From Chloroflexota bacterium (lineage in GTDB: Bacteria > Chloroflexota > Anaerolineae > Anaerolineales > VGOW01), in assembly GCA_016197225.1 (NCBI GenBank), contig JACPWC010000037.1, positions 1 through 40,289 on the forward strand: a DNA stretch of 40,289 nucleotides. The letters are read 5' to 3'. A model generated the notes under the pieces. The model had not been told where the DNA came from, did not search any database, and saw nothing but the letters and a program-made list of their open reading frames with translations. A program made the position numbers and the translations under genes. Below are positions 1,670-2,746 of the stretch, piece after piece (position 1 is the stretch's first letter; each line of letters starts with the position of its first letter).

Positions 1670-2746
1670 TCAACAGAAGATGAGTTCACCGGCCAGGCCG
1701 CTCTCAGCCTGGCCAATCTTCCAGCCCGGCGCGCGGCGCAGAAACTCGTCGGCCCGGTTCGCGTCCAGAGCAATTAACAAGCCGCCGCTGGTTTGCGGGT
1801 CGAACAACAACATTCGTTCCCAGTCGGCCAGTTGGCGTTCGAGCTTTACCCATTGCGAATAATAATGTTCGTTGCGTTCCGCGCCGTCGGGGAAAATCCA
1901 CTCGCGGGCATAACGTTCGGCGCCGGGTAGCCAGGGTAGTTTAGCAAATTCAAGCCGGATCGCACAGCCGGACAGATGGGCCATTTCGTGGCCGTGCCCG
2001 GCGAGGCCAAAGCCGGTGATGTCGGTGACGGCGCGAATGGCTGAACCGAATTCCTGCGCGGCGCGGGCCGAGTCACGATTCAACTTCATCATGCTTTCAA
2101 TGCAGGCGCTGGCATCAGCTTCGCCGACCTGGTCGCGTTTGATGGCGGTGGTGATGGCCCCGGTTCCGAGCGGCTTGGTGAGAATGAGGGCATCACCAGG
2201 ACGAGCGCCGCCTTTGGTGAAAATGTGGTCGGGATGAACAAGGCCGGTGACGGCCAGACCGTATTTGGGTTCGCGGTCGGTGATGGTGTGGCCGCCGGCG
2301 ACAACCGCCCCGGCCTCCTTCACCTTCTCGGCCCCGCCGCGCAAAACGTCCGCGAGCAGGGCCGGGTCAACATCGTCCGGCCAGGCGGCCAGGTTGAGGG
2401 CGAACAATGGCTCGCCGCCCATGGCGTAAATATCCGAGAGGGCGTTGGCCGCCGCAATGGCTCCAAACTCGTAAGCCTCATCAACAACCGGCGGGAAGAA
2501 GTCGGTGGTGGAGATGATGGCCTGCGCGTCGTTAAGGCGGTAGACGGCGGCGTCATCGGGCGCGTTTAAGCCAACCAGCAGAGCCGGGTAGTCTTTGGGT
2601 TGAAACAGTTCGCCCAACGAACGGACTACTTGCCCCAGAACCTGAGGATCAAGTTTGGCCGCTCAACCGGCGCACGAGGCCAGCGTTGTCAGGCGAATTT
2701 GTTTGCCCGGTGAATGATTGGTTATTGGTAATTTGTTATTTGTCAT
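1670..2746 (-). CDS. selD: Selenide, water dikinase SelD, itself a selenoprotein (in-frame UGA)
   Basis: SelD makes selenophosphate from selenide and ATP, the selenium donor for Sec-tRNA and for selenouridine. A conventional reading starts at 2617 and lacks the catalytic N-terminus. Reading upstream in the same frame through a TGA at 2665-2663 restores it: ATG at 2746, then RLTTLASCAG-U-AAKLDP, giving 358 residues with Sec at 28 and the catalytic Lys at 31. That is the same three-residue spacing as Cys17/Lys20 of E. coli SelD. The rest is typical: STTDFF near 65, an AGGHT segment, DITGFGLAGHGHEM and LFDPQTSGGLL. An in-frame stop lies just upstream of the ATG, which helps fix the start. The first dozen residues (MTNNKLPITNHS) are encoded inside a low-complexity word array. 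A hairpin follows the UGA. Expression therefore needs selA, selB and selC elsewhere in the genome (inference). Confidence 0.9.
2629..2653 (-). promoter_or_regulatory. Candidate bacterial SECIS hairpin of selD
   Basis: On the minus strand, nine nucleotides after the UGA codon, a stem forms from arms CTTG and CAAG (outer), a two-base AT bulge, and arms CCTCAG and CTGGGG (inner, one T-G wobble), closed by a GTT loop. The loop begins 22 nt after the UGA and has a G at its first position. Bacterial SECIS elements lie inside the coding region immediately 3' of UGA with the apical loop about 16-37 nt away and a G near the loop apex, so position and shape both fit. The assignment is by eye, without folding energies. 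Confidence 0.75.

Follow-up and report, generated by a model that had tools for sequence, protein, structure and literature searches.

Sec-containing SelD (Sec-SelD) is a long-known class. In the accessible portions of the literature, selenocysteine (Sec) occurs in 19% of SelD genes of reference prokaryotes and NADH dehydrogenase-like SelD fusions carry Cys (PMC4561486), SelD and FdhA are held largely responsible for maintaining Sec decoding (PMC1794560), and Anaerolineales single-cell genomes contain Sec formate dehydrogenases and Sec translation factors (PMC4959059). Bacterial SECIS elements (bSECIS), as delimited in the accessible part of PMC13188914, have an apical loop of 3–9 nt with a G in its first two positions, an upper stem of 4–16 bp, 16–37 nt between the UGA and the loop, and a free energy of –7.5 kcal/mol or lower. 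In the E. coli fdhF-type element, according to an excerpt of PMC8659212, U17 is bulged and G23 and U24 lie in the loop. The selD gene analysed here lies in a 40,289-nucleotide stretch of DNA from a Chloroflexota bacterium (the window). It is an ordinary Sec-SelD, of the same family, with Sec at the Cys position in the N-terminal loop and a SECIS directly downstream, and the available excerpts on Sec-SelD and on Anaerolineales Sec genes make the finding ordinary in kind. One feature sets it apart: in most bacterial Sec-SelDs compared the SECIS loop lies near nt 37, counted here and below from the U of the UGA, whereas in the window it lies near nt 25.

Read through its UGA, window selD spans positions 1670–2746 on the minus strand and encodes 358 aa with the Pfam domains AIRS and AIRS_C, ending in a TGA stop at 1672–1670. 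It matches NCBIfam TIGR00476 (family cut-off 125) at 371.1 bits when the genome is searched, the match enclosing a single TGA, and at 377.1 bits as a protein. The ATG start codon (2744–2746, minus strand) follows an in-frame stop at 2752–2750, as the initial annotation had noted, and agrees with relatives of the same genus, which have an ATG at the matching place (L050, L065) or five residues further out (L053; L, G, C and f numbers denote loci, genomes, contigs and families). A run of degenerate 7-base units (AATGGCA, AATGATA, AATGACG, AATGACA, AATAACA, AATTACC and AATAACC, at 2775–2711 of the minus strand) extends across this start codon, so that part of the N-terminus is encoded by these units; AATCAGC-like units occupy the same place in L050 and L053 of the same genus.

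The UGA read as Sec (2663–2665, minus strand) is in frame and is codon 28 counted from the ATG. Translation through it gives IRLTTLASCAG-U-AAKL and so restores the SCAG-U-AAKL motif named in the initial annotation. We aligned the protein with solved SelD 3u0o (database title: selenide, water dikinase), which we take to be the E. coli enzyme. The two are homologous along 320 residues, and the Sec of the window falls on the first Cys of GAGCGCK in 3u0o; the second Cys of CGC is Ala in the window. A Lys stands three residues after the Sec or Cys in both proteins, in agreement with the equal spacing claimed in the initial annotation. U28 and K31 are invariant across a ten-row SelD alignment. With Sec at the place of the catalytic Cys of other SelDs, SelD would depend on its own product.

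When the UGA is treated as a stop, the longest selD ORF runs from a TTG at 2617 to 1670 and encodes 315 aa, 43 residues fewer, exactly the loss foreseen in the initial annotation. Gene callers that treat UGA in this way are likely to truncate window selD. That only these 43 N-terminal residues are missing, and that both AIRS domains begin after them, could be taken to mean that the TGA is a nonsense mutation or an assembly error and the gene dead or misread. We give this reading almost no credence, as UGA stands at the same position in 72 of the 77 related SelD loci retrieved from the samples of the class and the order, in many genomes; the protein upstream of the UGA is conserved in relatives; and selA, selB and tRNA-Sec are present in the genome. 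Mutation or assembly error is already refuted by the conservation of the UGA. Judged by these 72 loci, the window UGA at the conserved Cys/Sec site is certainly more than chance, and window selD is confirmed at the sequence level as a selenoprotein gene of a kind already known.

Of the remaining five loci, two have Cys at the Sec position (L045 and L089) and three were unread by the motif (L019, L020 and L049), L020 showing Cys. The class-wide matches agree with a conserved UGA, at least six of those listed being without a stop. Among the 61 genomes of the order sample, 48 SelD matches exceed the cut-off; 45 contain one TGA and three contain none, namely two within frames of 743 and 750 aa and the Cys-bearing SelD of G283. 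SelA exceeds its cut-off in 39 of the 44 genomes with UGA-SelD, against 3 of the 17 without (Fisher p 2.5e-7). Five genomes with UGA-SelD have no SelA over the cut-off: two are only 59 and 63% complete, another has SelA in two nearby pieces that are both below the cut-off, in a fourth the match is a 27-bit fragment, and the fifth, G254 (91% complete), is without any SelA match. The three genomes with SelA and no UGA-SelD are 84, 72 and 69% complete.

Several SelDs outside the main pattern deserve mention in their own right. The SelDs of L020, L049 and L019 form part of TGA-free open frames, 743 to 770 aa long, which may be the known NADH dehydrogenase–SelD fusions; their genomes (G243, G295 and G049) also carry a separate UGA-SelD. 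SelD free of TGA is found in family f48 (L045, read as Cys, and in G107 and G222) and in L089 of G283, again with Cys. The SelA search gave no match in G283, and its SelD therefore probably serves something other than Sec. In L065 (G287:C142) the SelD-holding frame is 935 aa long counting the TGA, whereas most others have 350–400 aa; this locus may therefore lack the usual selD stop.

The genome (4.8 Mb in 126 contigs, 97.95% complete) was searched for the machinery that the initial annotation had proposed looking for, and all of it is present: selA on contig C126 (536.9 bits), selB on C104 (326.4 bits, or 355.7 with its neighbour in the frame) and tRNA-Sec, the product of selC, on C75 (72.6 bits, anticodon TCA; Rfam and ARAGORN). 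The SelB protein carries SelB-wing_2 and wing_3 domains. Rfam gives one other tRNA-Sec match above the cut-off, which ARAGORN identifies as a tRNA-Ser (anticodon TGA). A below-cut-off SelB-like match near a contig end (L004, G000:C3:17833-18714; 192.3 bits) is perhaps another translation factor. The genome search found no selenouridine synthase (TIGR03167), which makes Sec the probable destination of selenophosphate. UGA also occurs within fdhA on C56 (L077; 991.8 bits, one TGA). In this second UGA gene a hairpin with the loop GGUCU at nt 22–26 follows the TGA, although 147 of 200 shuffles fold at least as well as the entire stretch. This loop lies close to the position of the window selD loop, in another gene and with five nucleotides instead of three.

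A genome-wide reassignment of UGA, for instance to Trp or Gly, would make a SECIS unnecessary. Nothing was found in its favour and we hold it to have practically no chance of being right, even less than a dead gene: of the 24 long non-overlapping ORFs in the window, 11 terminate in TGA, selD itself included, the UGA residue aligns with the Cys of SelD, and the tRNA-Sec has the anticodon TCA. The TGA stops already refute this possibility. The interpretation of the gene as a Sec-SelD is supported overall; of the two findings named beforehand as speaking against it, absent Sec machinery and a stop in relatives with no homology upstream, neither was encountered.

The hairpin that would direct Sec insertion at the window UGA has the upper stem-loop CCUCAG-GUU-CUGGGG at 2633–2647 on the minus strand (nt 19–33), with the GUU loop at 2641–2639 (nt 25–27). 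The minimum free energy (MFE) structures of 56 and 46 nt extend it to 2628–2654 by a 5-bp lower stem (2654–2650 with 2632–2628) beneath an AU bulge (2649–2648); the lower stem is only partly kept in relatives. Folding bears out, as a sound prediction, the hairpin reported earlier with its GUU loop starting 22 nt after the last base of the UGA. Set beside the limits available from PMC13188914, the hairpin has a 3-nt loop with G in its first two positions, a 6-bp upper stem, 21 nt between the UGA and a loop that begins at nt 25, and free energies of –15.5 kcal/mol (46 nt) and –19.5 kcal/mol (56 nt), both for structures that contain it; all of these values fall within the limits. Like the E. coli fdhF-type element, as far as the excerpt of PMC8659212 describes it, it is a small upper stem-loop after a bulge, with G and U in the loop. 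It differs in its 6-bp upper stem and 3-nt loop, and with the bulge at A17 U18 and the loop at G25 U26 U27 it is one to two bases further from the UGA.

Taken alone, the window hairpin exceeds chance only moderately. A 37-nt piece without the UGA folds otherwise (–10.9 kcal/mol), dinucleotide shuffles fold as well as the native sequence in 13 of 200 cases for 56 nt and 17 of 200 for 46 nt (z –1.56), and an Rfam search of 2550–2760 at a permissive threshold (up to E 10) gave four weak matches, none to a SECIS family. This weakness on its own is one reason to consider that the UGA does encode Sec but the hairpin at nt 19–33 is a chance by-product of Gln-Val-Leu codons, and that SelB uses another structure, for example at the nt-37 place. 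We think this unlikely. The published bSECIS limits accommodate the hairpin, to the extent that PMC13188914 was available, and the corresponding nt-37 place in the window (nt 30–46, 2620–2636 on the minus strand) shows no hairpin with a G in the first two loop positions; its score is 0 when that G is required, and without this requirement a weak stem scores 10 (p 0.33 in the synonymous-codon test described below). Together with the relatives, the sequence evidence for the window hairpin appears stronger.

Most relatives have a stronger hairpin, approximately GGCGCAG-GUN-CUGCGCC, with the loop at nt 37–39 (the distal seat), and by a plain stem score the distal seat is the stronger in 54 of the 72 UGA loci. 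By inspection, 13 of the 74 read loci have the hairpin at a proximal seat with the loop near nt 24–25. Five belong to the window's own genus (L001, which is window selD, L050, L053, L065 and L087), three to f65 (L051, L055 and L056), four to f69 (L061, L066, L085 and L086) and one, L046, to f37, where L026 scores distal and L048 is weak at both seats. The registers of the proximal helix are one base off in f65 and in L061 and L066 of f69. At a threshold of 11 the plain score assigns both seats to 27 of the 74 class loci with the distal one stronger, and to 5 with the proximal one equal or stronger; so many calls of both seats indicate that plain stem scores are not specific. When a G early in the loop is required, the distal score is 0 in 11 of the 13 proximal loci, the window included, with 7 in L066 and 12 in L053, which argues against the use of an nt-37 structure in these genes. 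The two seats are 12 nt, or four codons, apart. At the proximal place the window encodes P-Q-V-L-G where other loci commonly encode P-E-A-L-A, from which a second QVL, matching the one that codes the loop, appears to have arisen four residues before it. In L053 a GGT stands at nt 24 and another at nt 36, and the 49-nt MFE fold of this locus lacks the proximal hairpin. We found no description of two SECIS seats in selD in the literature searched, which gave a partial view, and the displaced SECIS is a modest new detail. The less usual place of the hairpin is an aspect invisible to a reading of the window sequence alone.

Whole-region free-energy z-scores were too weak to separate the seats, so we used a codon test in which synonymous codons are redrawn while the protein is kept fixed, either with any loop or with a G in the first two loop positions. 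It was applied to 12 proximal loci (L087 was left out) and the 59 other UGA loci. In the any-loop form, p fell below 0.05 at the proximal seat in 9 of the 12 proximal loci and at the distal seat in 2 of them (L050, p 0.018, and L053, p 0.0475); among the 59 others it did so at the distal seat in 39 and at the proximal seat in a single locus. The three f65 loci, with p 0.056 to 0.127 in this form, are not significant; these values, the fold of L053 and the register offsets of f65, L061 and L066 count against the shift. In the G-loop form, the proximal seat gave p below 0.05 in 10 of the 12 proximal loci and the distal seat in 1; among the 59, the distal seat did so in 39 and missed this level in 20, and the proximal seat did so in 1. 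The window itself gave p 0.0385 (any loop) and 0.037 (G-loop form) at its proximal seat. Of the two class loci read as Cys, one, L045, falls below 0.05 at the distal seat in both forms; this distal hairpin (p 0.0155 with any loop) is perhaps a remnant. The pairing at the distal seat of L050 and L053 is the second point in favour of a chance hairpin; codon choice in 10 of 12 loci points the other way. The test supports one seat or the other and rarely both, and it carries the main weight of the case for the shift. At the level of sequence the related loci show two hairpin positions with a codon bias for each, downstream of a conserved UGA and in company with the machinery genes.

Helix pairing was examined in alignments without the three loci that the motif did not match (L019, L020 and L049). 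In 45 of the 59 other UGA loci (A2, none from L085 on), 89.8% of the cells of the distal helix are paired, a value reached by 0 of 500 shuffles (87.6% in shuffles); 8 cells are changed on both sides, again reached by 0 of 500, and three pairs are changed on both sides, reached by 50 of 500. Slid by –1 column, the helix has an equal covariation score at 24.4% paired. The same 45 loci are 40.7% paired at the proximal helix. Nine of the 13 proximal loci (A1, without L046 and L085–L087) are just 52.4% paired at the distal helix, less than the 65.1% attained by slid versions of it, which again disfavours a distal structure in these loci. Seven proximal loci in one register (A4) are 100% paired at the proximal helix, as are 11 of 500 shuffles. 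The sole pair changed on both sides is 24–28, with GC exchanged for AU, and 446 of 500 shuffles equal this. Covariation support is thin for both helices.

The full SelD tree, which includes the SECIS-coding residues, places 11 proximal loci in one group (93/86) beside the distal L042, with L046 apart; L087 and L101 (partial) were left out of the trees. Without the SECIS-coding residues, the tree places f65 apart from the remaining proximal loci, though this is weakly supported, and the main group of 11 would then need two changes. In the AU test without these residues, a single clade of the 11 is not rejected (p-AU 0.561) and one clade including L046 is rejected (p 0.001), so that two or more moves within the sample fit the tree better than one. 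These results favour an independent move of the hairpin in L046. From the spread of the two seats and the tree, distal would be the older state and the move one from distal to proximal.

Beyond the class, we examined the best 80 named matches listed to a ten-SelD alignment headed by the window's own protein; having been chosen in this way, they give seat frequencies biased towards the window's kin. They comprise 67 Sec-SelDs, 7 Cys-SelDs and 6 unread. In the G-loop codon test at 0.05, 42 of the 67 Sec-SelDs are distal and 13 proximal (loop start nt 20–26); 53 are supported at one or both seats, 2 at both and 14 at neither. None of the 7 Cys-SelDs is below 0.05 at either seat. Proximal cases among these best 80 include Clostridium ragsdalei (L160), Desulfogranum japonicum (L163) and a Rokuibacteriota MAG (L168). 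At neither seat does a G-loop hairpin exceed the plain threshold in the Sec-SelDs L107, L111 and L161 of the best 80 and L048 of the class set. Within the class, as in other phyla, the seat with the loop near nt 37 appears to be the more common one, and we read the pattern as repeated relocation of the SECIS inside a coding frame, as far as sequence comparison goes.

We lean slightly towards a more general proposal, that bacterial selD carries its SECIS in one of two preferred seats, with the loop near nt 37 or at nt 20–26, and has switched between them several times. The lineage of the window would have moved by exactly four codons, about one turn of a protein helix, with QVL repeating the QVL of the old loop and L053 showing GGU at both places, the RNA signal and the protein helix being traded within one frame.

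For the locus itself, window selD is very probably a working gene for a Sec-SelD, in which SelB would deliver Sec at the UGA by means of a hairpin that would have moved 12 nt towards the UGA in the window's genus and in two further families of the same order. SelD, as predicted here, would make selenophosphate from selenide and ATP, and SelA would use it to make Sec-tRNA(Sec). SelB would carry Sec-tRNA(Sec), bind the hairpin just after the UGA and deliver Sec in place of termination; in the window, the bound structure would be the hairpin at nt 19–33. In the window's genus, f65 and f69 the loop would have moved from near nt 37 to near nt 25, a move that was presumably neutral or mildly advantageous. 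Homologous selD genes with and without the displacement form natural pairs, in which the distance of the SECIS from the UGA differs by 12 nt while the proteins are alike. Such pairs are a ready-made test of how far SelB tolerates changes in the spacing between UGA and SECIS.
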